64,000 nucleotides of DNA, from the NCBI GenBank assembly GCA_000467715.1, contig AJFK01000295.1:38742-102741 (forward strand). Direction: 5' to 3'. Positions 441 to 51,592 of this stretch are shown piece by piece; within the stretch, counting starts at the first letter, position 1, and the number at the start of each line of letters is the position of its first letter. Both the position numbers and the translations under genes were made by a program. Source of the DNA: Hysterium pulicare CBS 123377. Its lineage: Eukaryota > Ascomycota > Dothideomycetes > Hysteriales > Hysteriaceae. The notes under the pieces are model-generated. The model ran no database searches. It had not been told where the DNA came from and worked only from the letters and a program-made list of their open reading frames with translations.

Positions 441-1702
441 ATGTTCAGAATTCCGAGGATAGAATCCGCGCCTGCTTCGACAGCTGGTAAGTCTCTGTCA
501 TGCTCCAATACACACCTGCCGTATCAAACATCCTTCGGGAAACCAACGGAAGAGTCTTATCTGCCAAGAATATTTACGTGACTGAGGGAACTACGTACTA
601 ACATATCACAGCATACAGCGAAATTCAAGCGCGCGTACGACGCTTAAGAGAAGTCAGAGAAGAAGTCTATCGCCAACGTCAGAACCCGTCTTCCAGCGGA
701 CCACCCTACACGTCCAGTCTTCTCCAAGTTGAAACGATTCTCCGCGCCTGGGGAAGCCACGAAGTCAGAGCAGTAAATCATCAGCAACTGGATACGCCTC
801 AAGCGATTGTCTCTGCTGCAGTCGAAACGCGAACTTGGCTTATGGAGAGAATCCAAGAGATCGAGGATATGCCACATCAAGCACTTATGCGACTGCTGAG
901 AAATGGTGTCGAGAACCCTGATCGGAGCGAGTGGGATGATGGGCAGTTTCTGCTGATGGCACTATCGGACAACACCGCGTCGGTTGAGGTAAGTCTTGAC
1001 TTTGGTTTTGCGGTTGCTTTTGAGAGGAACATGGCCCAGCGAAATGTTGAGCATAGCAACTGGAATGAGGGTGAATTGGCCCAAGCGGTATCTGTCCGGC
1101 ACCTAAGAGATCGGGGGTCGTGGCAGAGGTCTATCGCGAGGAAAGTGAAGGTGCATGGTTTCACGGTTCCAGTTGCTCCGGATGTTCTAAAGAAAGAGGA
1201 GGAGATGTGCCCTATCTGTCGAGAAGACTATCTTTCCCATGAGCGCCCGGTGGCAGACATTATGTTGGACTATCCTGTGAGGATCGTATACTGCGGTCAT
1301 ACCATTGGAAGATACTGTCTGAGTGAGTGGGTCAATTCGGGACTGGAAAACAGCGGGACCTGCCCCATGTGTCGCGAGGGCATTTACCCGCGGAAAGGGC
1401 CCAAATTGTCGCATGAGATGAAACAGTTTTTGTTAAATGACGGTAAGTTCACCGAGATATGGCAGAGCACAGGATTCGGCGGAGACATGATCATCCAAGA
1501 GTTAAAGCGGTTGTTGGCGGATTGCATTATTCTTCAGATCTTGGCGGAATGGGTTGCCACATCGTGGAAGGATCAAAGCATCCAGAACGAGATACATCGA
1601 CGCAGTGAGGAGGCCAAGGAAGAGGTTGGTAGATTCGGGGTACCCCAAGATATTTGGGATCGTTTTCTGGAGAGTTGGCAAAGCTATCGCGAGTCTAGAT
1701 GA
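441..1702 (+). CDS. RING-finger protein, two exons (family member 1)
   Basis: The gene joins 441-486 to 612-1702. The intron (487-611) starts GTAAGT, has a CTAAC branch site and ends CACAG, and the phase-1 junction keeps one frame through to the stop at 1702. Without it the N-terminus would be missed. The product is about 378 residues. A RING finger lies in the second half: CPIC, a long loop, CGH, C near the WV motif, then CPMC. It is probably an E3 ubiquitin ligase. The upstream helical part aligns loosely with the RING proteins at 8.2, 46.8, 48.6 and 50.3 kb. A perfect GTAAGT at 989 followed by AG at 1039 would remove exactly 51 bp in frame. I kept this segment because it aligns better with the paralogues when retained. 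Family membership is an inference from my reading, not a search. Confidence 0.75.
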
Positions 1703-8234: not shown

Positions 8235-9446
8235 TCACTGCTGGTTGTCAGCGGACGGCTCAGCAATAGAGACATCAACATCATATGATTTCCACCATTC
8301 GTGTAAGCTCATATGATCGTCGTACAGCGCGTCTAACAAGCCTAGTTGTTGTTGGAACCGGGGTCGGTACTCGTTGATGAGATGCTGGATACCCTCTGGC
8401 GTCGTATCATACAGGACTCTTAAGAGCATAAGAATACTGTAGTAGCTACCCAGTACCATGCGGGTATGATCAGCATGATTGTCAATCCTGAAATTGAGTT
8501 CAGCAAGATTTGCTGAGGTGCTAGCGTCCGCAACTGGGACGCGACGCCGCTGCTCAAACAGCACATGTCTACAGTAAGGACATGTGTTGTTATTATTCTC
8601 GGTGGTGTTGATATATGAGGCCATGCAGGGAAACCCTACCAAATGTTGGCATGATAGGCGCACCGGGCGATGCTCATTTTCATCGTACTCCTCCCGACAT
8701 ATGCAGCAAATATCTCCCTGGGGAACCTCTGATACTTGCACGATCGAGGCGATATCTTCAACTTTAGTATCGGGACCGGCATTTTGGAGTGGAACATCTG
8801 AGAAGAAAGACTCCTGCGCCCGCCGAAGCGAGCATGCCTCCCGCATGAGATCGGAGCGTGCCACCTCCAACATAAGGACTGACCAGGCCATCCCGTCCAG
8901 AAAATGATGCTTGTCCATTTCTGCAATGATAGCGTTGCGGTCTCCAATGATCGCGGGATTCAAGAGACACTTGATGGCGCGCCTACGCATGTTAAGAATT
9001 CTAGCCTGAGCTTCTTCCATCATAGATTGAAAATTAATATCCATGAAGTCAAGATACTCCTCGCTAGCGTAATCTGCCACCTCCTGAGCATCTGACATGG
9101 CTTGAACCAGTTCTTTCTCATCATCTGAGACTTCATCTGCGCCGCATGTCTCAAGTTTCGCTAGGACGGCTTCGGGTGTGGTGCCTTGCGCTCGAAGTCG
9201 AGCTCCGACTTGGAATAAGTTTTCCAAAACGGGTGTCTGATCATCTTCAGGCGAAATTGCAATCGGTGTGCGAGCCAGTGGCGCTGGCTCACCGGTCATA
9301 GGTGGCGTGTGAGATGATGGCAGTGGCTCTCTTGCTGAGGGTGGTAAAGGAGATATGGCAGAATTTTCGCTAACCGTCTCCACTTGATTTCCTCCGGCCT
9401 GTTCTGACTGACGGTCTTCCATTCGGTCGTTCATTTTGGTTCGCAT
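8235..9446 (-). CDS. RING-finger protein, single exon (family member 2)
   Basis: This uninterrupted frame encodes 403 residues and starts at an ATG whose complement is at 9444-9446. The N-terminal 70 residues are Ser/Pro/Glu-rich and probably disordered. A helical middle part follows. A RING finger lies at about 245-295: CCIC, CQH, C, then CPYC. The RING ends in an Arg-rich tail without the Cys/His extension found in the three tandem paralogues near 46.8-51.6 kb. A C-terminal helical region closes the protein. It is probably an E3 ubiquitin ligase; substrates are unknown. It is the only one of the five complete RING genes on the minus strand. Confidence 0.75.
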   Translation of the reverse strand: MRTKMNDRMEDRQSEQAGGNQVETVSENSAISPLPPSAREPLPSSHTPPMTGEPAPLARTPIAISPEDDQTPVLENLFQVGARLRAQGTTPEAVLAKLETCGADEVSDDEKELVQAMSDAQEVADYASEEYLDFMDINFQSMMEEAQARILNMRRRAIKCLLNPAIIGDRNAIIAEMDKHHFLDGMAWSVLMLEVARSDLMREACSLRRAQESFFSDVPLQNAGPDTKVEDIASIVQVSEVPQGDICCICREEYDENEHRPVRLSCQHLVGFPCMASYINTTENNNNTCPYCRHVLFEQRRRVPVADASTSANLAELNFRIDNHADHTRMVLGSYYSILMLLRVLYDTTPEGIQHLINEYRPRFQQQLGLLDALYDDHMSLHEWWKSYDVDVSIAEPSADNQQ

Positions 9447-10136
9447 ATAAATTGGTTATGTCGTGGATGGGCGTAAATTAGAGTTGAGGTAATGTTCAAA
9501 TATATCTTTTTTTTGTATATGAGTCAAATCGAAAGTTTGGGTCAGAAGGTAGGAACACTGGTCAACGGTGTCGAGCATGGTTGCTCTTATAAAACCGCCA
9601 AGAGTGATTTTTGAAGTCACATCCATGGTTCCCATCGCAGATGCGTACATTTTGAATGCTGATGCGTGATTTCGAAATTGTGAGCGATCGAGTGTGGTCA
9701 TCCTAGAGTCATTGAGATTGTGATGGAACGATGATTGGATATACTAAAAATTTGCGAACGGTTTATACGAAAGAGGCGCTGCTACAAGGTGCAGAAGCAT
9801 GCTTGGGAGAATCATTGGAAAGTAAGATTGAATAATGACCGAAAAGAAATCATCGCCTTATATCGCATCAAAGAATGGTGGTCTGAAAACCGTGCTGAAC
9901 ACGTGTCTCATTGCGAACAAACGTGTTTAAAGCAACGACAAAGAACTTGGAGTTTGAGTAACAATGTTAAAAACATGCAAGGAGTTGAGAGGTCAAACGA
10001 AATGCCTCTGGGAAGGACGTCTGTGAGTTTACTCACGTGATCATCCAACCAACATCACACCGCCCATCGAAGCACTCACCTTCACCACGACTGTCTACCT
10101 CCGATTCCATGCTTCGACTCTCTCTCAAGTTTCACA
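9447..10136. other. Divergent intergenic region with a doubtful small ORF
   Basis: This region lies between the minus-strand RING gene and the plus-strand gene at 10137. A minus-strand frame of 81 residues (9456-9701, real ATG) has no recognisable domain and ends 10 bp before the RING start. It may be a leader ORF or chance. A plus-strand frame at 9735-10040 also lacks support. The pyrimidine-rich block at about 10060-10110 is probably the 5' leader of the next gene. Confidence 0.4.
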
Positions 10137-27869: not shown

Positions 27870-29705
27870 TCAGCTGCTCGGTTCGAACAACTTCCGAATA
27901 ATTTCTAGCTTCTCTGATTTTTCTCGGAGTTCTTTGATTTTCTCGTTGGACTCAACCAGCTGTTGCTGAACATAATCGAACCTTGTCGTTAGGATTTCCT
28001 TCTGTTGTGTGCATTCCAGCAAGTTGTTCCCCAATTCGCGCCATCTCTGCTGTTCTTGTCGAACGGAAGCTCGCAGTTCTCCCACCATAGGACGCAAGTG
28101 ATCAACTTCAGCTCGGAACTGCTCAAGTCCCTGGATTTCTTCCTGTAGAGTTCGATGGAGTTTGAAGAGATCGGCGTTGTAACCAACCTGCGTTTCCAGG
28201 ATCTGAGTTGTGTTGCGTAGCTGTTGTTGCTTTTCATTGAGCTCGTCCCTTAGCCGTCCCTCTACGGTCCTCACTCGGGCTAGCTCATTTTCTCGGGCCT
28301 GGCAAGTCAGCGCGTCTCTGGCTAGCCGTTCGGTCAAATTTTCGTTCTTTCCGCAGGACTCAATCAGCTGTTGCTGAACGTAATCGAACCTCTTAATCAA
28401 GGTAGAATTTCGTTCCTTGGTTTGTCGCAACTGATTTTCGGTCTCAAGCTGGTTCCGCTGTGCATGGCGCAAAGAATCTCGCAGCTCTCCAACTAGGGGC
28501 CGGAGGCGATTTGCCTCATTTTCTACTTGCTGAAGTCCCGAGATCTCTTCAGCTTGTCTGCGTTGCGATTCAATCAGAAAGGCGTTGTGATTAGCTTGCC
28601 GCATACGGTCTCGATCTAACGTGTGCAATTCTTGTCTCGATGCATCAAGCTCATTCTTCAAGGTAACAACCAAGGTTCGAATCTGAACTAGCTCCCTATC
28701 TTGAGCGTCCCTGCTGTCCTGTAGTTTAACAATGCAAAGACGTAATGCTTGTCTCTCCTCCCGGAGCGCAGCTTCAGCATTGTATACCGCACTCAAATAG
28801 CGTACAGATTCCTGCTTCAATAATTGCAGTCCTCGGTCTTTGTCCGAGCTTGCTTTTGCGACCATTTGCAGCTCGTTTTGCAACCTTCGGGATTCATCAA
28901 AATGACTTCGCTTCTGGCTCGCGAGCGTCTGTTCCTGTTCTAATACTGTTTGTTTCGTGATTTCCATTTCTTTTCTAGCATCCTGTACCATTTTATACTG
29001 GTCTGTTACCACTCTCAAGAATTCACCTTTCTCCTTGACTCGAGACTCTGCCCAATCCTGTATCTGGTGTTGGAGAGCTTCATTTCGGGCCCTTTCCTCT
29101 TGGTACCTGGTCTCTAAGGTCCTGATATGCTTTGCATTGGCTTCGTCTCGCTGGTCATGAGCATTCTCTTTTTGGGCAAGACTAATGCACAGAGCATCCT
29201 TTTCGTTCTCGATGTTGAATAATCGTGCACGAAGTTGCTCAAGCTCCTGTTGCAAGTTTACATTCTGCTGGTCGCCAGACTGGTAATTCGGGCCGGTTGA
29301 CTGCTGCTTGCGTAATACAACAGTTGGTTGAAAATTCGAGTGCGCAGTTCCTGCATCCGAGGGTATGAATGTTGGCCTCACATAAGGCTCCGCAAATGCA
29401 GCCTTGTCTTTCACGGTGGAATTGGTAGCATTTGCGGCAGCAGTGGTTCTCAGTGCAGCAGTAATAGCAGTCAAATTGGCCTTGCTTTTCTTGCTTTTGA
29501 TCTTTCTTGCCTGCGCAGTAGTTGTGCTTGTCGGATCAGTAGCAATAAGAGCAGCAGCCGCTGCCTGAGTAGCCTCGTTGATGACCGGCAATGGTTGAAA
29601 AAATTGATAGCCTGACTCTGGGCGAGACTCGGATGCTGGCAAGTCTTCGGGACCGCTTGATAGAGCCCTCGACGAACGGGGCCGGTAGATTTTTTGAAGC
29701 TTCAT
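27870..29705 (-). CDS. Long coiled-coil protein with duplicated module
   Basis: One exon. The frame opens at a TTG, and the first ATG is at 29705, giving 611 residues. Residues 1-140 are basic and Ala/Thr-rich. From about 145 to the end it is a nearly continuous coiled coil rich in Gln, Glu and Arg. A module of about 66 residues occurs twice (about 400-466 and 534-599). It starts 'LRPLVGELRDS' / 'LRPMVGELRAS' and ends 'RFDYVQQQL(I/V)ES'. The same module appears once in the neighbouring gene at 30165-31040, so the two are paralogues. No membrane segment is seen. Likely roles are scaffold or cytoskeletal, but function is unknown. Confidence 0.72.
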   Translation of the reverse strand: MKLQKIYRPRSSRALSSGPEDLPASESRPESGYQFFQPLPVINEATQAAAAALIATDPTSTTTAQARKIKSKKSKANLTAITAALRTTAAANATNSTVKDKAAFAEPYVRPTFIPSDAGTAHSNFQPTVVLRKQQSTGPNYQSGDQQNVNLQQELEQLRARLFNIENEKDALCISLAQKENAHDQRDEANAKHIRTLETRYQEERARNEALQHQIQDWAESRVKEKGEFLRVVTDQYKMVQDARKEMEITKQTVLEQEQTLASQKRSHFDESRRLQNELQMVAKASSDKDRGLQLLKQESVRYLSAVYNAEAALREERQALRLCIVKLQDSRDAQDRELVQIRTLVVTLKNELDASRQELHTLDRDRMRQANHNAFLIESQRRQAEEISGLQQVENEANRLRPLVGELRDSLRHAQRNQLETENQLRQTKERNSTLIKRFDYVQQQLIESCGKNENLTERLARDALTCQARENELARVRTVEGRLRDELNEKQQQLRNTTQILETQVGYNADLFKLHRTLQEEIQGLEQFRAEVDHLRPMVGELRASVRQEQQRWRELGNNLLECTQQKEILTTRFDYVQQQLVESNEKIKELREKSEKLEIIRKLFEPSS

Positions 29706-30164
29706 CCTAGTGGTTGGTCGAGGACATTGCTGAAAACATTGGGGACCGTTTTTAACGGCCAATCGGAATGAAGCGGCTATTGGAAAAACAGCGAGAGATA
29801 TCGTAGATATGTTGGCGTTGTATCAGCATCGCTCAGTAAGTAAAGAGGGCAGGAAATGTAAACAAAACGCATCAAAGGCTCGGACGCGAGGCTGAGTGAG
29901 CAGCTTTGCGTCCACTTAGGCAGCAGCGAGGCATTCATGCTTTGCGCGAATATCTAATTCGAAAATTGTTGATCGAAGACGTGTCACTGCATGAATAGCA
30001 ACTGAATCCGGGTCCAATTGTGAGTGTGGGTTTCCCCGCTCAAGCAAGTTTGTGGTGTTGTCTAAGCCTCCATCTATGCAGCCACAACCACATGCAGCCA
30101 TCTCATTCCCCAGTAGTCTCGTGGGGTAGACCTCACATATGCAGCAGTTGGCTCTCTAAATTTC
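29706..30164. other. Intergenic region between coiled-coil genes
   Basis: These 459 bp hold no supported gene. They should contain the promoter of the 611-residue coiled-coil gene and the 3' end of the next one upstream. Confidence 0.4.
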
Positions 30165-31040
30165 TCATAAATTGGGCATCTGTGATTGTGACATGATGGT
30201 GGAGAATGCATCTGTTTCTATTCTACGCAGCAAGGCGTTTTCGAACTTGCGTGCGATTTCCAATTCCCGGGTAGTAAAAACGAGCTTCCTCTCCAGCTGC
30301 ACGTTGTCCTGTCTGACCTTGTCATATTCCTTACTCAGCGTGTTGAAGGCTCGCTGTAGGTCACTTTTCTCGTTTTCGAGGGTAGTACATGGAGTAGATT
30401 TTGAAGAACTTGTTTCCACTTTTCGGCGTTCCGATCTGGCGATTCGAGACATGAAGCCCACGGTGCTGGCTTGAGAATGGCTGATAAGCTCGTTCCTATC
30501 ACTCATTTCTTTATTCATCGCGTGTACCATCGCTCGGTATTCTAGCAGAAGTTGTTCTATGTAAGAAAACCGTTTGATCGTTCGGGTCATGTCCATTTCA
30601 AGTCTTGTAACCTTCTTTTGGACAACTGTATGCGACCGTTCCTTCTCTCGCAAGGAGTCTCGTAGCTCTCCGCACAGTGGTCGAAGTCGATTCGCTTCCT
30701 CTTCAAACGAGGCGAGTCGCTGGACTTCACATTCGAACGTACGCAGTACTCCTAGTTGTGACCGAAGAGACATGACTTCAGCTTCGATTGGAGTGAGTCG
30801 CAAGACCTCAGCCTCCATCATTGTGCAGTAGCTTTGTAGGTTATCCTTGGCTCGTATTTCCCTGTCCAAAATATCCACCCTCCTTTGTAGAGCATCGACG
30901 CATTGCGACAGCTTGTCGGATAATTGGTTCTCTGGAGTGTATAGTATCGAATATGAGGGAGGATCCTCAACATTCGTGTCTGGTTCTCGATTTCGAGTCT
31001 CAAGCTCGAGGACCCTATTTTCTAAAGATCCGATTTCCAT
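30165..31040 (-). CDS. Coiled-coil protein, paralogue of neighbour
   Basis: An open frame of 291 residues from ATG 31040. It is coiled coil almost throughout and contains one copy of the shared module at about 116-180 ('RLRPLCGELRDSLRE' ... 'IKRFSYIEQLLLEY'). The frame stays open upstream of the ATG for about 90 bp, so a 5' exon may exist. A candidate is the 98-residue frame at 31070-31366 with a hydrophobic N-terminus ('SFIWIILCNLVPCL'), which would make a membrane-anchored coiled coil like the one at 14.5 kb. I found no phase-compatible splice pair, so I do not join them. Confidence 0.6.
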   Translation of the reverse strand: MEIGSLENRVLELETRNREPDTNVEDPPSYSILYTPENQLSDKLSQCVDALQRRVDILDREIRAKDNLQSYCTMMEAEVLRLTPIEAEVMSLRSQLGVLRTFECEVQRLASFEEEANRLRPLCGELRDSLREKERSHTVVQKKVTRLEMDMTRTIKRFSYIEQLLLEYRAMVHAMNKEMSDRNELISHSQASTVGFMSRIARSERRKVETSSSKSTPCTTLENEKSDLQRAFNTLSKEYDKVRQDNVQLERKLVFTTRELEIARKFENALLRRIETDAFSTIMSQSQMPNL

Positions 31041-32032
31041 CTCAGCGAAATAGACTTCAAAGGCTGTAGCTATCTCAGAAATGACCCCGTAGCCGTTCTT
31101 TTTGTTGGTTTGGAAGCTTGTAATGCCGCATGCGGTTGTGTTTCAGCGGCAGAATTCTCAGAGTTTTCGTTTCTCTGTCTGCTCAGGGATCGCGTGACAT
31201 CAGCATGCACCTGTGGAATCTCCGCTTGACTTTGCCCCGGAGTTGAGGCTGTGCTACGAGCATCTCTTCGCCAAATGGCATAAATTTTGGAATGTGAGAG
31301 CATCGGCATTCTGGATAAGCAAGGAACGAGATTGCACAAAATGATCCAGATGAAGGAGCTTGTCATGATAAAAAGGCCAAGAAAAATGACCTCCGAAAAT
31401 CAAGTGGCAGAAATGTAGTGGGTCATTGTACCTCCAGCTAAGGCAATTACCTGGGGATTCAAATTCCTTCTGAAAACACATGAAACAAGTTGATGCCTAC
31501 GAGCAATAAACGTTTCAAGACCCGGGTGAAAATAATTCGAGCTCTAGTATGAAAACCTCAACAAGGTTGAGAATGTGGTGTTCGGAACGAGCCTACATGA
31601 CGGACTCGGTCGGGGAGAATGTATCAACCTAGTGGCCAACCGAAGGGCGAGCAGGATGATGGCGGGCTGAGTTGCCAGTAGGAGGCGAGGAGAAGCCAGC
31701 ATGACTGGCATGAGAGTTGCATACGTTCTTCCTAGCTCCATAGAGTACTAAGAGGCCATACAGGATGTGAAGCGAATGAAGACTGCATCTGGACTGCTGA
31801 AGGCTGAGTGCGATGTCTGACGTGGAAGTTCAGAGTTCGGCTATGTTCTAGTCTAACCTCATTGAGTAAGGTGAAGGGCGAGTACATTCTCGTGAATAGC
31901 CAGTTTCATGTCTTCTTGCAGATCTTTGTAAAAGTTTTTCAGTTGAACAGTTTAGCACTAAGTACAGATTCAATTATGCATGACAATCATGATTCATCAA
32001 ATAGCCCAGATCGAAAGCAGACCATCCTGGCG
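31041..32032. other. Intergenic region, possible 5' exon
   Basis: About 1 kb without a firm gene. The minus-strand frame at 31070-31366 (98 residues, true ATG, one hydrophobic stretch) may be the first exon of the coiled-coil gene at 30165-31040. Nothing else is supported between 31367 and 32032. Confidence 0.35.
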
Positions 32033-32748
32033 TCAGTTTCCACCTCTCAATCTATAAACAAGGCGAAGTTCAGAGCCCTGTTATGTGTCAGTGGAGTAAT
32101 GATATGAAGTGTTAGTAGTGCTATCGGTTACCTCCATGATCCCGTAGTCCATGATCATATGCTCAGATTTGTCGTTCAGCTCCTTGCCACCAAAAAGCAA
32201 CCGGATCTCCGACGCTTCCTTCTTTTTCTCGTTTGCGAAATAATTGACGAAATCTTTGACAGTCATCTGAAGAGGTATATCGTGTACAGTCAAGCTCCTG
32301 CCATCCAAATCTTTGATGAATACTGTCTTCAATTTGTGTCCTTTGTACTTCTCTCGGAGTCTGGATGGATCATCTACAGCTGGCTGACGGGTGGCACTGC
32401 TGTTAGATGGCACTACAGGCAAGTTCGGGATATTTGTAGTTGTGCCCGAAGTAAGAATTCGAGTAATAATAGTATCTTCTTTGATCCCGCAGTCGCCCAG
32501 CGCGGAGGCTACGATCTAATCAGGCAGGCTAATAAAGAAATTGATTCATGTTCAAACTTACTGTCATCGAGCAGATTTCCGAAAGCCATCAGCCTGATAT
32601 CATCAGGCTCACTGCGAATTCTAGCGGCCACCATGCGTTTGAATGTTTTTACAGTCGTGAAACGCGACATACCACCTACACTGATGACTTCTGAGCCATC
32701 AACGGCCTCCACTCTCAGCTCTCCGTAGGCGTCGCTGCTCGTAGACAT
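32033..32748 (-). CDS. Tandem ubiquitin-like modifier ending in LRGG-N
   Basis: Three exons in minus order, 32748-32562, 32508-32132 and 32077-32033, give 202 residues; introns are 53 and 54 bp, phases 1 and 0. Splicing completes two ubiquitin-like domains. Domain 1 (about 8-75) runs from 'ELRVEAVDGSEV' to 'FGNLLDDTSALGDCGIKEDT'. Domain 2 (about 115-202) includes 'FIKDLDGRSLTV', 'IRLLFGGKELND' and 'DYGIMEGSELRLVYRLRGGN'. The last intron (GTAACC donor, ACTAAC branch site, AACAG acceptor) must be removed to expose Arg-Leu-Arg-Gly-Gly followed by one Asn and the stop. Ubiquitin precursors also carry a short extension that is cleaved. Positions matching ubiquitin Lys6 and Lys48 are Lys; the Lys63 position is not. 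Domain 1 has no Gly-Gly, so the protein would act as a two-domain modifier like ISG15 or FAT10 in layout. It is much diverged from ubiquitin. Confidence 0.82.
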
Positions 32749-33237
32749 CGCTCAGAGTAGCGTCTGAATATATGGAATGAGATGTAGTTCAATAGATGAT
32801 GACAATTGATTAAGTTTGGAGGAGGCTGAAGGTACAAAGAATGGTGGGGGAGAGCCGGAGTCTTGCGAGGCTATGATTCCGACCTCTTCTCACGCGTCCC
32901 TCCAGTAAACACTGCATCATGCAGGCTGCAACAAGTTGCGGGACAAATGGTGGAAGCTTCGGTATGATTGGCGATCAGATGAGGAGGCGCGTCGATGGGG
33001 CGACCTTATTTATGCAAGGTTTGGGGCTGGCGCAAGGCTGAGCTGAGCCAACATCATCACTCTCAGTTATCGATGCAGGTGCCTGGATCATACAAAACCG
33101 AGACGAACCGTCATCATTGGCCGTCCCCAGCAAAATCCCATAAGATCTAAATTTTTCGCCTTCCGAGGCAGACCGTGCTTTGCAGACTGTTCTTCCGCAT
33201 TAGATTTTGTAACTCGAGTGCTCCTCAAACTCGCACC
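32749..33237. promoter_or_regulatory. Divergent promoter, ubiquitin-like / RBR genes
   Basis: A 489-bp spacer lies between the starts of the tandem ubiquitin-like gene (minus) and the RBR ligase gene (plus). It has no other open frame of note. A shared promoter is possible, but no regulator site can be named with confidence. Confidence 0.5.
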
Positions 33238-34476
33238 ATGGATACGGAAAAGGATTTCGAGGACTGGAAGCTCTGCTTCAATGTGAACCTCTCCTTCCAG
33301 GTTCTCACTCCGCCAACCACATGGCGATGCCTTGGGTGTGGTTTAGTAAACTCAACTTTGAAGCCGGCTTACCGATCTCATTTTGTAATCACTGCAGTCA
33401 AGTGTCCCGCTGGGCACAACGAGTCTCTACGGATTGAAGACATCGGTATATGCGCCGAATGTGAACAGGATCTGATTCTGCTTATAAGTAAGAGGAAACA
33501 GGAATGTTTACAGGACGGGTGTCGTCGGATATTGGTGGTAAAAGAGGATGCTGTCAAGAAACGGGTGAAGAATTCAACCTACAACCAATATTTGTCTTTG
33601 TTGAATGCCCATCGGATCTTCGAATGCCCAGTGTGTATGGTCGAATACCCCCTCTCTGAAGCTCCTGTCCGACCGCCGACGACGAAGTGCAACCACGATC
33701 CGGAAGTATGCTCTGATTGTTTAACAAGCATGCTAGTTGCACAGATAAACGGGGGTCGCTGGGAGTCTATCCGATGCCCAACTACCAGTTGTGAGGAAGA
33801 TCTGGAAGGAAGAGATGTCCAAGCTTTCGTTCCACTAGAAGTATTCCGAACCTACAACGAATTTGTAACGAATCGTGCTCTTTCCCAGGATCCAAACTTC
33901 CGATGGTGCTGCGGCCGGATTAATTGGGGACAAATAGCATGTACATGGGGCCAGCTGCATTCAGAGGATGGTTCCATGGAATGGCGATGCATCAAGTGCG
34001 AGCAGTTGAACTGCTTCAGTTGTAAAGGTCCTGGGCACCCCGATGAGACGTGCGACAGCTACCGAGCTCGCCAGCGAGATAGTGGTGCGAATGAGCACCG
34101 CATGCGGCAAATCTCCAAGAAGTGTCCAAAGAGGGGGTGTGGTATAAGGATCCAGAAAAATGGAGGTTGCATCAACATGAAATGTAAGCCAGGAGTTGAA
34201 GACTGAGCCTCCTACTCGAAGACTTTCACAGACTAACCGGGCTTCTCATTAGGTCCATGTGGTATCAGTTTCTGTTGGCAATGCAAGGTCATCTATGGTA
34301 CGGATACAACGCCGTGTAGCTGTGGTCCGCATGCTATGCATGACAATTGTAGAAGACATCTGAAGAGTTGCCGATACCAAAGTTCAAGGAGTCAGATCAA
34401 GAAACCGGCTGCGACAAATCCGCTGTACTGTAGTGACTGGGATGAGGACCCTGAGTACATAGGAGGTGAGGATTAG
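33238..34476 (+). CDS. RBR-type E3 ubiquitin ligase (RING1-IBR-RING2)
   Basis: Two exons, 33238-34183 and 34253-34476 (69-bp intron), give 389 residues. I chose ATG 33238 because it sits in CACCATGG; an upstream in-frame Met at 33175 is possible. RING1 begins at Cys130 ('CPVCMVEYP') and ends near 181. The IBR follows at about 200-275 ('WRCIKCEQLNCFSCKGPGH'). RING2 starts 'CPKRGCGIRI' near 297, and the intron splits Cys316. The catalytic Cys is Cys311 in 'GGCINMKC', with 'CGISFCWQCK' after it. RBR ligases take ubiquitin or a related modifier from an E2 onto this Cys as a thioester before transfer. The N-terminus has an extra Cys/His set (Cys31, Cys34, Cys56, His60, Cys72, Cys75) that may bind zinc. 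It is divergent from the tandem ubiquitin-like gene. Confidence 0.9.
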
Positions 34477-45787: not shown

Positions 45788-46765
45788 TATGTAGTTTTTT
45801 CTGCAGTAATGTTCATCTGAAAGATCCGCAGACTTTTGTGCTGGGATAAAGTCGCCGTTCGCCCTGAAGGGCGGGTTTTGGTCCTTTGTAGTCGACATAT
45901 TGCGGCACAGCACAGAGGAGTATCATAGTGTCCAACTGGATGGGTCGCTTGGATAATGTGCGGTATATTGAGTCACATGCAAGTATTTGGAGCGGAACCA
46001 GGAAGTTGGGAACCCCCCTGTCAGCCATCTAGATTGAATCATGGTATCGTAGTTTTCAAAACAGGGAGAATACTTTCTCGAATTCACCCGCTACGCCGCA
46101 ATATTTGTGAACTCGACCTTGACGTGCGGGGAGATATCACTGTCAGGGTGGCATTACTAATGAAGATGTTGGACTTTCCAAATAAGCTCTGTTAAATTGG
46201 ACATTTATATTCTGGGGTCGAGAGCCCAAAAGAAGACCTTTAGTACCTACTTCTCCTATTTTCAAGCAGATATATACCGAACATCTTTCAGCCTTCAAGC
46301 TAGTTCCTCAGAATCCTTGTTAGTAGTACGGATACAGGAGCAAAGCTCATCGTAGTCCGCGAGACAGCTCATGCCAAATCCGACGAGCTAAGATTCATTC
46401 GGTAGCTTCATCATTACAAACTTCAAAGATATAGCACGCGAACCTACACTCGCATTAGTTGAAATAATCAAAGAATTTTATAAGTTATATAGGTTTGTTA
46501 TTTGAAATTCGGCAGGAGGTTTTTACGGTGCTGGATTTTAGGCATATCGAATTAGAACGTAGACACGAAGTGAATGGCGAACCTGTGGTGAATAGACGCG
46601 CACTTTTTCTTTCTGCATGCTCACGAACCAAAGGACCCAATTTATTCCAAATCACGTGAACGAAAGACAGTTCTACACAACCATAACACTAATCCAACTA
46701 AACTTGTGTCTTCCGGCAATTTACGATCAAGGAGAAAACAAACCAGGCTACTCCCAGTCGACGAT
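45788..46765. promoter_or_regulatory. Divergent spacer, P450 / RING gene
   Basis: Almost 1 kb separates the P450 start (minus) from the RING start (plus). No gene is supported. A 79-residue plus-strand frame at 45956-46195 and a frame at 46617-46946 that overlaps the next gene have no features. A+T-rich sequence lies at 46440-46510. Confidence 0.4.
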
Positions 46766-47908
46766 ATGGACACGTCCAATCCGGTCACCAATGCTGAGGT
46801 CAAAGTGCAACCGCATGCCGAACACAAGCTTTCCGGAATCCTTCTATACGTGCATCTCCAACAAACGGTTGCCAAATTGGAAGAAACAATGGCTACAGCA
46901 AATGTACTACACGCCGACCTCCGCCTACGCGCGTTCCTTTTCGTAGTGCATCGAACCTGCGACGACATCAAAGCTGGGGACAAACAGATCATCAGATACG
47001 CTGTTCATGGCCTCTTCGCCAGAGTTCTACGGTGCTATCATTTCAAGGGACACAAATCCTTCGCGTCATACTTGGAGATGGTCCAAAATCAAGAGTTTCG
47101 GCAGATGATAGCGATGGATATCTTTCTACTAGCCTTTACGGAAGTTTTTGGGAATCCAATTGAGAGGATCGAAGTTGTTCTTGATGCAGTACGTGCATGG
47201 GAAACAGCACTCACCCCAGAAGCCGTTTTCGATGACGCCCAACCAATCGATGACCGTTACTTCTGCGTAATATGGTTTCAAACGCACAAATTTAGTAAAA
47301 GTACACCTACAGACGGATACGAGGAGGAGAAGCAATGCCCCATATGCCACGAAGCTTTCGAAGAAACCCAGAATCCAGATGAAGAGGATCACCATCAATC
47401 CCAAATCGTCTGTGGACATCTATTCTGCCATGGCTGTATCGCGAAGTGGGTGAACATGGGGCATGGCGGCAATATTGGGTGTCCGATGTGTCGGAGATGC
47501 GTCTTTTGCAGTGTATCCGACTGTAGTATCCACATTCAAGGGAGTTACCAGGATTTACAGCACCGGCCACAAGGGCCACCGGCACCCTTTCCGCTTCTCT
47601 CACTGTTGCGCCGTATTGCGCCGGAATTTGATGATGAATACAAAGGCCTTAGTGGCCCTCAGTTCGTCGAGTTGAGGGAACAAACAATAAGCTTACGTGT
47701 GCTCATTGGAATCTTTGAGGAACCTAATGCCCCTCGTCCAGCCGGCCTTATGCAGGATATTCTTGACGGGTTTGAGGCAGCCGTTCGCCAGTTGATGCTT
47801 CAAGCCTTAGGACAAGATGTTGAGCATAGTGTACTCACTGAAATTGCTCAAACTTTTCAAATGAATCGTTACGTAGCCGTACCTCAAGATTTTGCGGCAC
47901 GCCGATAG
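46766..47908 (+). CDS. RING-finger protein with Cys/His extension (family member 3)
   Basis: An intronless frame. The first ATG is at 46766, giving 380 residues; the frame is open upstream from a GTG. The N-terminal helical region carries 'DIFLLAFTEVFGNPIERIEVVLDAVRAWE', a block shared with members 4 and 5. The RING is at about 190-240 (CPIC, CGH, CHGC, then CPMC). A second set of ligands follows immediately: CxxCxFCxxxDCxxH. A C-terminal helical domain closes it ('LLSLLRRIAPEF', 'FVELREQTISLRVLIGI'). It is probably an E3 ligase of unknown substrate. It is the first of three same-strand genes spaced by about 0.7 and 0.4 kb. Confidence 0.78.
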   Translation: MDTSNPVTNAEVKVQPHAEHKLSGILLYVHLQQTVAKLEETMATANVLHADLRLRAFLFVVHRTCDDIKAGDKQIIRYAVHGLFARVLRCYHFKGHKSFASYLEMVQNQEFRQMIAMDIFLLAFTEVFGNPIERIEVVLDAVRAWETALTPEAVFDDAQPIDDRYFCVIWFQTHKFSKSTPTDGYEEEKQCPICHEAFEETQNPDEEDHHQSQIVCGHLFCHGCIAKWVNMGHGGNIGCPMCRRCVFCSVSDCSIHIQGSYQDLQHRPQGPPAPFPLLSLLRRIAPEFDDEYKGLSGPQFVELREQTISLRVLIGIFEEPNAPRPAGLMQDILDGFEAAVRQLMLQALGQDVEHSVLTEIAQTFQMNRYVAVPQDFAARR

Positions 47909-48609
47909 CACGCTAATGGTTGGCGGGGGTGGGCTTTATACCGAATGGTTTGATTTGATGGAAGTTGAAAAAGATGTATATTGCTCTTTCATGACAGGAT
48001 AAGTGCTTAATTTAAGAGATCTGATATTCTCCTCCACTTGCTGGAGCCGCAAAAGAATGGGAGCATACCTAATGCCATGCACGGGTGATGTAAAAATGGT
48101 GGCCGTAAGTCGAATAGCTACAGGGACTCTGATAGCTAGCAAACCACTGGATAACGAACTGCACGATAAGTGTCTCTATTTATCGTACTCCCGACTTCTT
48201 ATACCTACCTGACCGTTACCTTTTCCTGTCCTTCAATTCGAATGCTTATTCATATGATACGATGCAAGTCAGCTTCAAGCTGGCAAATTGCTTTCTACAT
48301 TTCACCGAGTCTGAATCACCTTCGTTAGCTGATAGGAGAGGCTTTGGTAGGCGCAAACCTATGATCCGAAACAACGAATTGCGACACCTGTGCGATGCAT
48401 GTGAGTTAAGTGAATCGCGTCACTTTCACTTAAATTTCTCACTGACTCGCTTTCAGTAACTCGCTTCATCCCACTATCTTTAGAAACCAAGGATTTCCCT
48501 ATTTCTCTTTGGGTACCCTCCTTCAACATCACTTACGGCGGTCAACTTGGCCTCCAGAACAACACCTTGCTCGCCCGTCGTCCCTCACGATCACAATCCC
48601 GTAGAGCAT
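47909..48609. other. Intergenic region between RING genes
   Basis: About 700 bp without a supported gene. It contains short frames only. The pyrimidine-rich 48480-48600 part is probably the leader of the next RING gene, whose frame is open back to a TTG at 48547. Confidence 0.4.
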
Positions 48610-49821
48610 ATGCAGAGCCCGACGTCAGCATCAATGGCTGACACCGCGTCCTCGTCCATTCTTCAGCAAGCCCAACAAACGATGTCAACAGAGAGCGTCC
48701 GACACCTAGTCGCCGAACTGCGAAATGCGATGGCTGCCAAAGCCCCTTCTCCGCCGTATTCTGACAATCCAGCGCGTTTACGCTTGTTTCGACTTGTACG
48801 ACTAGTCGCCAATGCCTGCCATGAGATCGATATCGGTAACGAGAGAGTCATTCACTGCGTAGCCGAAACGGCCTTCCGAAATATACTGCTGTGTTACCTC
48901 AGTCAATCGCACGAGACGCTACTTGAACTGATTGAAGGCACCTTGAAGAAGAATCCGCTTCGGAGGACAGAAATGGATATTATCATGCTTGGTTTCACTG
49001 AGTCTAACGGCACCACAGTTGGAACGATCGAGGTTGGCCTCAACACATTGCAAATATGGCTGTCAAATCTTATCCCTGACAATATCCTCCACGACCCGGA
49101 GGTGGACGAACGATCTGCTCGTCAGAAGTTCTATACCATCAACACAGAACTTTGCATGATGCAGTCCGAAGAGGAGCCAGAGGGAGTGAGCAAAGATGCG
49201 GAATGCGCAATGTGCAGGAGATATTACCCACACGAAGACTCCCTTTACAATAGGGACCACAAACCAGTCAAAACCATATGCGGACATATTTTCGGCGCCG
49301 ATTGCCTTCACAATTCCATTCGATCAATCCAGCGCGATAGATATGCCTGTCCTCTTTGCGAGAACTGCTTGGTCTGCAATACGGCTGATTGCAAGACCCA
49401 TACTCACTACGACTGGAGGCTAGGAGACGGCTATGCGCCTGTCCCTTTGATCGATATCTTACGTCGTCTGGTGGGCCCTATGGAGGAAGACCCCTTCAAC
49501 GGAATTCCTCCATCCAAGTATCTTTCACTCAGGGAGAGAACTCGCCATCTCCGAGAGATCCTTCCTATTGTCGAAAGTCCTGGTTTAAGTCCACACATAA
49601 AGGATAATGGCGTTCGCACGGATCTGAAAGACAGTACCTTGATGCTGATCCGTTTTCTCATCGCTCAAGAATTAGGATTCAGTTATGATGCTGCCATGCT
49701 GCAGACGCTTGAGCAGAAGGTGAGCCAGCTATCGAAGGAGTGGATTGGTAAATGGATTGAGAATGAAAGTGGTGAAGATAATGAGGAGGGGTTTGGGGAC
49801 GAGGCCGATGAAGGACGCTAA
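48610..49821 (+). CDS. RING-finger protein with Cys/His extension (family member 4)
   Basis: An intronless frame of 403 residues from ATG 48610. N-terminal Ser/Pro-rich residues precede the family helix block ('DIIMLGFTESNGTTVGTIEVGLNTLQIWL'). The RING (about 198-250) has CAMC in place of CPIC, then CGH and CPLC. The extension reads 'CENCLVCNTADCKTHTH'. A helical C-terminus ('LIDILRRLVGPM', 'YLSLRERTRHLREIL') matches members 3 and 5, and an acidic tail ends the protein. It is probably an E3 ligase. One RING His position is followed by 'IFGADC' in place of the usual FCxxC, which may weaken the second zinc site. Confidence 0.75.
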   Translation: MQSPTSASMADTASSSILQQAQQTMSTESVRHLVAELRNAMAAKAPSPPYSDNPARLRLFRLVRLVANACHEIDIGNERVIHCVAETAFRNILLCYLSQSHETLLELIEGTLKKNPLRRTEMDIIMLGFTESNGTTVGTIEVGLNTLQIWLSNLIPDNILHDPEVDERSARQKFYTINTELCMMQSEEEPEGVSKDAECAMCRRYYPHEDSLYNRDHKPVKTICGHIFGADCLHNSIRSIQRDRYACPLCENCLVCNTADCKTHTHYDWRLGDGYAPVPLIDILRRLVGPMEEDPFNGIPPSKYLSLRERTRHLREILPIVESPGLSPHIKDNGVRTDLKDSTLMLIRFLIAQELGFSYDAAMLQTLEQKVSQLSKEWIGKWIENESGEDNEEGFGDEADEGR

Positions 49822-50263
49822 ATGAGTCTGCGGCTACTATCGTCTTTACCACCTGCCTAAAAATCCGGCTTGGACTTTGTACAAGGCCTTAAAGCTTGTT
49901 GCCTTCCTTGACGGTATTCAAAAGTAGAATGTGAATTAGGATGTTCCAAGGGTTGGGCGCTTTAGAAGTCTACAATGTACCCAATAATGATGTCCACCAT
50001 AAATGTTCATTTCTCGCAGGCATATCTAAACGAAGTGAATAAAGAAGAAACGTAGATGAATTAGCGTAAAGATCTGTTCATCACAATGTGATTCTTGAGA
50101 ATGCAACTTAACCGGAGATCAGTGAATCACACGAGCTTCGGACTCACTTGGCAAGGTATTTTTGTTTTATTTTTAAAGCACGTTAGGCCCGGACAACACT
50201 CAACCGTGACGAACCTCAATCTACTACCCTGCACATCCTGCCAACCACTACTTCTCCAGCTTC
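49822..50263. other. Intergenic region between RING genes
   Basis: No gene is seen in these 442 bp. They hold the 3' end of member 4 and the promoter of member 5, with a CCACTACTTCTCC-like pyrimidine stretch before the start codon. Confidence 0.4.
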
Positions 50264-51592
50264 ATGTCTGCACAGAGTACCTTACCATCCGACATGATGG
50301 ATTACGAGCCTATGAATATCGACATTCCGTGCACAAGTCCAGCTGTGAATGACAGAAATGACAGCGACGTCGAAATGACTTCAGATACCGAGCAGAGAGT
50401 TCAGAATGGTCATGACTACATAGTAGCGGGAGGAGCTTTTGTCTGCCCCTATGTATGCGAGGGCTTAAACTCAATAATCGCTTACATGAAATCAGCGCTT
50501 CCGTTGGACGAGTTTTCCAACTTCAATGGCGCTTCGCCAGTAGATGTGCGTCTAGAGAGTCTCTTAGGACTGTTTTGGGGTATCTGCGAGGACGTCGAGG
50601 CGGGAAAAGAACTAGTCACTCACCATGCAAACCGCGGCCACCTTAGGGACGTATTGGACCTGTATTGCACGGAAATTGATCAACGGCATAGGGGGCTTAC
50701 TGACGTACGCCGAGAGATCGAGTATGCGTTGACGGAAAATCCTAGGCGCTGGCTCCCGATACACGCTTTTTTGAAGGCTACCACCGAGGCTGACGGATCT
50801 ACGATTGACCGAATTGAAAAGGGCCTTGATGCAGTCCGGGAATGGGAAGTGTACTTAACAGATTTAGCTTCCGCAGATCGCGCCGGCGCCGGCGCCAGAG
50901 AAGATTCAAACCAGGAACAAGGAGAGGACGAAACAGAACATCATGAATTCCAAATCGATGTCAAACAAGCGCCGCGAAGATCAGATACTTACCCCGAAGG
51001 TATAACAAAGGGAGATACTTGCCCGATCTGTCAAGAAGAATACTCCGAACCCGAAAAATGGAAAGATCAATGGGAGGAAGATGAGCATGTACCTGTTACA
51101 ACGGCTTGCAAACACCACTTTGGTCGGTGTTGTATCCAAGAATGGACCGAGACCCTTGCGCCCAATAGGTTTTCGTGCCCAATGTGCCGGAAATGCTTGG
51201 TTTGCAGCGAGAGTGACTGCAAGGACCATACACCTCACCAACCAACGTCAGTATTGGAAGCCTCGCCGATAGCGCTACCCGAGATAATCAGTCGTGTTGC
51301 CGAGGCAGTGGGGCCCTTGAATTGTGACAGGCTCAGTGCTGTCGAGATGTCACAACTTGAGGAAGATTCACGTGCGCTTCGAAGAGTCTTGGGCGTGCTC
51401 GAGAGCGTTAGTTTTGCAATGTATCTGGATTTCGATCGTGCGGAGCAATTTTTGGGGGTACAGGACTCCATTATGGAATGCTTTCGCCTCATGATTCGCC
51501 GTGTGCAAGGGCATGATTATGATCAACGGAAGTACTTCATTGTGAGAGAAATGGTGGACATGCTTGCGAACAATTTGTTTGAGTATGATTAG
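50264..51592 (+). CDS. RING-finger protein with Cys/His extension (family member 5)
   Basis: An intronless frame of 442 residues from ATG 50264. The helix block 'IHAFLKATTEADGSTIDRIEKGLDAVREWE' matches members 3 and 4. An acidic linker with an alternating Ala-Gly run ('AGAGA', from a GCCGGC repeat) leads into the RING (about 252-305): CPIC, a long loop with 'EDEHVPV', CKHHF, CCIQEW and CPMC. The extension reads 'CRKCLVCSESDCKDHTPH'. The C-terminal helical part ('LPEIISRVAEAVG', 'ALRRVLGVLE') is shared. It is probably an E3 ligase. This is the best preserved of the three tandem copies. Confidence 0.78.
   Translation: MSAQSTLPSDMMDYEPMNIDIPCTSPAVNDRNDSDVEMTSDTEQRVQNGHDYIVAGGAFVCPYVCEGLNSIIAYMKSALPLDEFSNFNGASPVDVRLESLLGLFWGICEDVEAGKELVTHHANRGHLRDVLDLYCTEIDQRHRGLTDVRREIEYALTENPRRWLPIHAFLKATTEADGSTIDRIEKGLDAVREWEVYLTDLASADRAGAGAREDSNQEQGEDETEHHEFQIDVKQAPRRSDTYPEGITKGDTCPICQEEYSEPEKWKDQWEEDEHVPVTTACKHHFGRCCIQEWTETLAPNRFSCPMCRKCLVCSESDCKDHTPHQPTSVLEASPIALPEIISRVAEAVGPLNCDRLSAVEMSQLEEDSRALRRVLGVLESVSFAMYLDFDRAEQFLGVQDSIMECFRLMIRRVQGHDYDQRKYFIVREMVDMLANNLFEYD

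Follow-up and report, generated by a model that had tools for sequence, protein, structure and literature searches.

A gene of Hysterium pulicare CBS 123377 is predicted to encode a 202-residue protein with two ubiquitin-like (UBL) domains and a C-terminal Gly-Gly followed by a single Asn, and we consider it probable that this protein is a lineage-restricted, conjugatable tandem ubiquitin-like modifier. The gene lies in contig AJFK01000295.1, within a stretch of 64,000 nucleotides that was analysed as a whole and is called the window here; all positions without a contig name refer to it (Table 1). An RBR-type E3 gene stands head-to-head with the modifier gene.

Table 1. Coordinates of the modifier gene, its predicted domains and the adjoining E3-type gene in the window.
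Feature	Position	Strand	Evidence
Gene of the two-UBL modifier (3 exons with the stop codon; product 202 aa)	32033..32748	-	Splicing and translation; homologues over 100% of query
Modifier exon 1, 187 nt	32562..32748	-	Splicing and translation
Modifier intron 1, 53 nt, GTAAGT...CTGAT...GTAG	32509..32561	-	Homologues ungapped across junction
Modifier exon 2, 377 nt	32132..32508	-	Splicing and translation
Modifier intron 2, 54 nt, GTAACC...ACAG; CTAAC and CTGAC motifs	32078..32131	-	P0005 model enters intron at equivalent site
Coding part of modifier exon 3, GSELRLVYRLRGG and a single further Asn	32036..32077	-	Splicing and translation; tail conserved
UBL1, residues 9-81, split by intron 1, without Gly-Gly end	32453..32724	-	Pfam ubiquitin 33.3 bits, residues 1-104 alone
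UBL2, residues 123-201, split by intron 2	32039..32329	-	Pfam ubiquitin 39.5 bits, residues 105-202 alone; residue map
Region between the two start codons, 489 bp, head-to-head	32749..33237	.	Coordinates of both genes
Gene of the RBR-type E3 (product 389 aa), one intron between exons 33238-34183 and 34253-34476	33238..34476	+	Pfam IBR 47.7 bits; M. resinicola homologue
Cys311 codon, aligned with a RING2 cysteine of parkin	34168..34170	+	Sequence alignment

The modifier gene is read from the minus strand, which the earlier note on this DNA had not given, and its predicted model runs from an ATG at 32748-32746 to a TGA at 32035-32033, with exon 3 measuring 45 nt when the stop codon is included (32077-32033). 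The spliced product ends in VYRLRGGN. Both introns are short and of the GT-AG type, with one CTRAY branch-type motif in intron 1 and two in intron 2; in intron 1, use of the next-closest acceptor, a TTAG that lies 7 nt upstream, would put the product out of frame. Both splice junctions of this three-exon model are supported by homology, because the alignment of the four full-length homologues shows zero gaps at either of them, and because a cut homologue model, P0005, stops aligning at the intron-2 donor (after ...DYGIMN), where its residues V-S are compatible with a GTAAGT. The two introns drawn by the earlier note stand as they were placed.

Both domains resemble ubiquitin in sequence. The whole protein scores 69.1 bits against the Pfam ubiquitin family (PF00240), with two matches, as a member of the ubiquitin superfamily does, and each half alone passes the curated cut-off of 25.4 bits. 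Identity to ubiquitin amounts to 25 of 76 positions for UBL2 and 16 of 71 for UBL1. When the domains of the window protein were shuffled, none of 500 shuffles reached the real score against ubiquitin (z=5.1 for UBL1, z=13.5 for UBL2), and the same count of 0/500 was obtained for every domain of the four homologues except UBL1 of P0004 (1/500). Judging from the scores of the halves and from these shuffle tests, the likeness of both domains to ubiquitin is well beyond chance at the sequence level, and the two-domain layout claimed earlier is supported; it is kept in all four full-length homologues. The likeness between UBL1 and UBL2 is weak in some homologues, with shuffles as good as the real alignment in 41/500 cases for P0002 and 2/500 for P0001, and an origin by simple duplication is therefore not demonstrated. 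AlphaFold2 models of P0002, the Lophium homologue, were of low confidence (mean pLDDT 40.7 for the sequence alone, 48.6 with 6 sequences), so that no predicted structure is counted as evidence. Since UBL1 has no Gly-Gly, the tandem should stay joined, and UBL1 should not be cut off in the way ubiquitin units are.

Four homologues align with the query over its full length (100%), with 60-64% identity: P0001 from Mytilinidion resinicola (63%), P0002 from Lophium mytilinum, and two from environmental contigs, P0003 and P0004. The two named species both belong to the Mytilinidiales (Dothideomycetes); all named homologues are therefore fungal and none is a vertebrate gene, as ISG15 is. At E up to 1, six of 179 candidates matched, namely these four and two cut models (P0005, P0006). 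When 6637 candidates were searched with a profile at E up to 0.01, the same six came back and, in addition, only P0011 of Cyathus striatus. The word-based search for candidates has limited reach, and the family may be wider than six relatives. P0006 leaves the alignment earlier than P0005, after ...EMNT, a break that is probably another intron, and its lineage may have an intron elsewhere; the full-length counts include neither cut model, since P0005 enters an intron where intron 2 lies and P0006 breaks off earlier. The two-domain layout with Gly-Gly and 1-3 further residues occurs in 4/4 full-length homologues. Relatives without Gly-Gly, which the earlier note had named as a finding that would speak against its reading, are two of six, and these are the two cut models. 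The genome of H. pulicare holds no paralogue among its nine matches to the modifier, two of which are the gene itself and seven other ubiquitin-like loci (E 2.5e-4 or weaker). A viral origin was discarded after a scan of viral contigs, in which 55 pattern matches yielded 0 relatives by tblastn.

Three other ubiquitin-like loci were noted. One (L026, C171:91700-93300) encodes a diverged ubiquitin unit that ends in LPLRGG and passes directly into a Cys/His-rich part, a fusion of the ubiquitin-AN1 type by look. Two more (L027, C4:147000-149000, and L029, C561:68000-69800) encode related proteins in which an internal ubiquitin-like domain, with sequence on both sides, ends in LRLCGG or LRMSGG.

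Of the stretches measured, the C-terminal tail is the best conserved in the family. Among the five full-length sequences, the window protein included, mean pairwise identity is 91% over residues 189-201, up to the Gly-Gly, the highest of five stretches measured; it is 82% just before UBL2, 78% in UBL2, 75% in UBL1 and 36% in the linker (82-109). All five end in VYRLxGG followed by 1-3 residues (GGN in the window, GGL in P0001, P0002 and P0003, GGGCL in P0004), and the mark of type I, or conjugatable, UBLs, a conserved C-terminal Gly-Gly that is free or precedes a short extension, is present in 5/5; the precursor-type tail described earlier holds for the whole full-length set. In ubiquitin numbering, UBL2 keeps K6, L8, R42, K48, V70, R72, L73, G75 and G76 in 5/5 sequences, and has Leu at the position of I44 in all of them, so that a hydrophobic patch L8-L44-V70 is kept. 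A review describes Arg72 as pivotal for the choice of UBA1 and adds Arg42 and Arg74 to the contacts (excerpt of PMC12355090). Position 74 is R in the window and in P0003, K in P0001 and P0002, and P in P0004. We count this Pro as the strongest evidence against conjugation, which is itself deduced from the sequences; the GGGCL end of P0004 and the Lys at position 74 of P0001 and P0002 also weigh against it.

Given the ubiquitin homology of the protein, one could ask whether it is a decaying or mispredicted polyubiquitin fragment, and yeast polyubiquitin does carry a single residue past its last Gly-Gly. This we regard as scarcely credible, since UBL2 is one third identical to ubiquitin and yet the whole protein is 60-64% identical to its four full-length homologues, while a four-match ubiquitin run, polyubiquitin by look, sits elsewhere in the genome (C557). 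Polyubiquitin of the UBI4 type shares the tandem ubiquitin folds and the extra residue after the last Gly-Gly, but its units are near-identical and joined at Gly-Gly sites that can be cleaved; those of the modifier are strongly diverged and separated by a linker, and the first has no Gly-Gly. A polyubiquitin remnant was accordingly rejected on the divergence from ubiquitin and the conservation in two named genera, which agrees with the earlier view that this is not a polyubiquitin gene.

The lysines of UBL2 bear on another alternative, in which the protein is a decoy that loads E1 and E2, or an antagonist of ubiquitin, charged by UBA1 and mainly damping ubiquitination instead of marking substrates. 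Four of the seven ubiquitin lysines (K27, K29, K33 and K63) are replaced in 5/5 sequences although R72 and R42 are kept, as such a role would have it; K6 and K48, however, are retained in 5/5 and K11 in 4/5, and nothing directly indicates inhibition. We hold this role to be improbable.

The conjugatable modifier would have to be activated, and the E1-like enzymes of the genome were surveyed by a six-frame search, which gave 12 ThiF matches at 7 loci. All fit known enzymes, named from their Pfam domains or best PDB match: UBA1 (C7), UBA4 with a rhodanese domain (C28), ATG7 (C588), UBA3 (C183), UBA2 (C267), AOS1 (C240) and, as the seventh, tRNA threonylcarbamoyladenosine dehydratase (C161). Among these 7 loci there is no dedicated E1 for the modifier (a diverged one may be missed by a six-frame search), no E1 of the UBA7 type and no UBA6, the locus on C7 being the one UBA1-type E1, without a second. 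ULA1, the other half of the NEDD8 E1, is missing from the matches, and the search was therefore not exhaustive. The lack of a spare E1 among the ThiF loci, taken with the retention of R72, points to UBA1 as the activator. No E2 gene was found beside the modifier gene, as 0/32 genome E2 matches lie on its contig, C232.

The adjoining gene on the opposite strand encodes a candidate RBR ligase. Its IBR domain clears the Pfam cut-off of 24.3 bits, and its C-terminal part aligns with RING2 of parkin (E 5.5e-6); no other PDB sequence matched with an E of 1e-5 or less. In this alignment Cys311 falls on the cysteine of the GGC motif of parkin, which is catalytic in that enzyme; the position is Cys in 5/5 sequences, the window included, within GGC in 4/5 and DTC in P0010. 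The first RING2 cysteine pair is spaced C-x4-C, as against C-x2-C in parkin, and the IBR_1 match is under the cut-off. RING1 and RING2 both stay below their Pfam cut-offs; no RING profile matched the protein with an E of 0.01 or less, and the RING1 Cys/His pattern is discerned by eye only.

The M. resinicola homologue of this RBR protein (66% identity) is about as near as that of the modifier (63%), and the longest contig given for each is 546,695 bases; from this equal length we take the two genes to be linked there, a linkage that may be ordinary synteny. Of the 4 RBR homologues with an E of 1e-10 or less, none comes from Lophium, so that just two genomes show the pairing. H. pulicare is not short of RBR genes, with 27 exon-wise IBR matches including the neighbour itself, and the position of this one can thus be coincidence.

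Other features of the window were noted alongside. Five RING-type genes lie at 602-1702 (+), 8235-9455 (-), 46592-47908 (+), 48484-49821 (+) and 50210-51592 (+), three of them in tandem, among which the one at 48484-49821 is below the curated cut-off. In the genome, zf-RING_2 gives 104 matches with an E of 0.001 or less, and contigs C31, C290, C426 and C440 each hold several; together with the window genes, these matches suggest a RING expansion in Hysterium pulicare. Two neighbouring long open frames on the minus strand (27870-29822 and 30165-31142) have a coiled-coil look and a common motif, EANRLRPLxGELRDSLR; Pfam gave nothing for either with an E of 0.01 or less.

The E3-type neighbour also lends itself to an explanation without conjugation, according to which the two-UBL protein is an adaptor. 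Its domains would bind the proteasome or p97, or would serve the RBR protein as a UBL subunit encoded apart, in the way that the built-in UBL serves parkin, with the Gly-Gly playing a structural part only. Many UBL proteins act non-covalently, the RBR gene adjoins, and the L8-L44-V70 patch of UBL2 is intact. On the other hand, structure alone hardly explains why Gly-Gly and Arg72 are present in 5/5 sequences next to an end that varies past the Gly-Gly, and a precursor-type end is a mark of conjugated UBLs. We judge an adaptor role unlikely, if worth keeping in mind.

For the conjugatable modifier, the following course is proposed. A ubiquitin C-terminal hydrolase or a USP would remove the residue or residues after the Gly-Gly; UBA1 would activate the exposed Gly-Gly, reading UBL2 as it reads ubiquitin; and an E2 would pass the charged modifier on. 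The neighbouring RBR protein would be the likeliest, albeit unproven, ligase, with its RING2 cysteine forming the thioester. As in the tandem tags ISG15 and FAT10, UBL1 would stay attached, and conjugates would thereby offer a surface of their own to be read.

Known tandem systems offer partial parallels. In ISG15, which is induced by interferon and has a dedicated E1 (UBA7), the Gly-Gly is on the C-terminal UBL and the protein ends in LRLRGG, compared with YRLRGG in the window and YRL[K/R/P]GG in the homologues. Like the modifier, ISG15 consists of two UBL domains, and its precursor is cut to the mature form (excerpt of PMC11354881); it is said to occur in vertebrates only (excerpt of PMC9722776). 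The modifier, in contrast, is fungal, has 1-3 extra residues and an RBR gene beside it, and shows no UBA7-type E1 among the ThiF loci of its genome; its kinship with ISG15 is known here only as common membership of the ubiquitin family. FAT10 of mammals is likewise a tandem UBL modifier diverged from ubiquitin, but it is made in mature form with the end CYCIGG (excerpts of PMC12355090 and PMC11354881) and pairs with UBA6 (excerpt of PMC12355090), whereas the modifier has R72 and a C-terminal extension in 5/5 sequences and no UBA6 in its genome survey. BilA, of the bacterial Bil operons, shares with it two UBL domains and an end of the processing type, with a C-terminal processing step described (excerpt of PMC11354881); the BilA operon has its own E1, E2 and JAB protease, while only an E3-type gene is recognised beside the modifier.

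A further fungal protein, P0011 of Cyathus striatus (257 aa), is matched by Pfam ubiquitin in two stretches and continues for some residues past an LRLRGG. It matches only UBL2 of the modifier, has a different N-terminal part, and its units are nearer to ubiquitin (164.5 bits for the whole protein versus 69.1), for which it is taken as a separate family on the sequence comparison. With its diverged ubiquitin units and LRLRGGSLQSLNI at the end, it is a possible separate fungal case.

No fungal tandem-UBL modifier is named among the matches listed from the open-access literature, as far as their excerpts go and with preprints and most subscription papers outside this scope; within those bounds, the earlier statement that no fungal equivalent has been described can be maintained. 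The protein should work like a tandem modifier, yet it belongs neither to ISG15 nor to FAT10. That the fungal pathway as a whole arose independently of these two, with a tandem-UBL tag and its own RBR ligase expressed head-to-head from one control region and served by the general ubiquitin E1, is a more tentative proposal, possible but rather doubtful at present. The modifier has the look of a fungal equivalent of the two-unit protein tags of vertebrates, and in the excerpts consulted such tags are otherwise described from vertebrates (ISG15, FAT10) and bacteria (BilA). A strain of Lophium mytilinum is listed (CBS 269.34), and it would provide a native host for the prediction on the tail. A separate fungal tag, flanked by an E3-type gene and with none of the ThiF loci left over as a dedicated E1, would allow an independent check on what makes a pair of joined ubiquitin folds useful as a tag.
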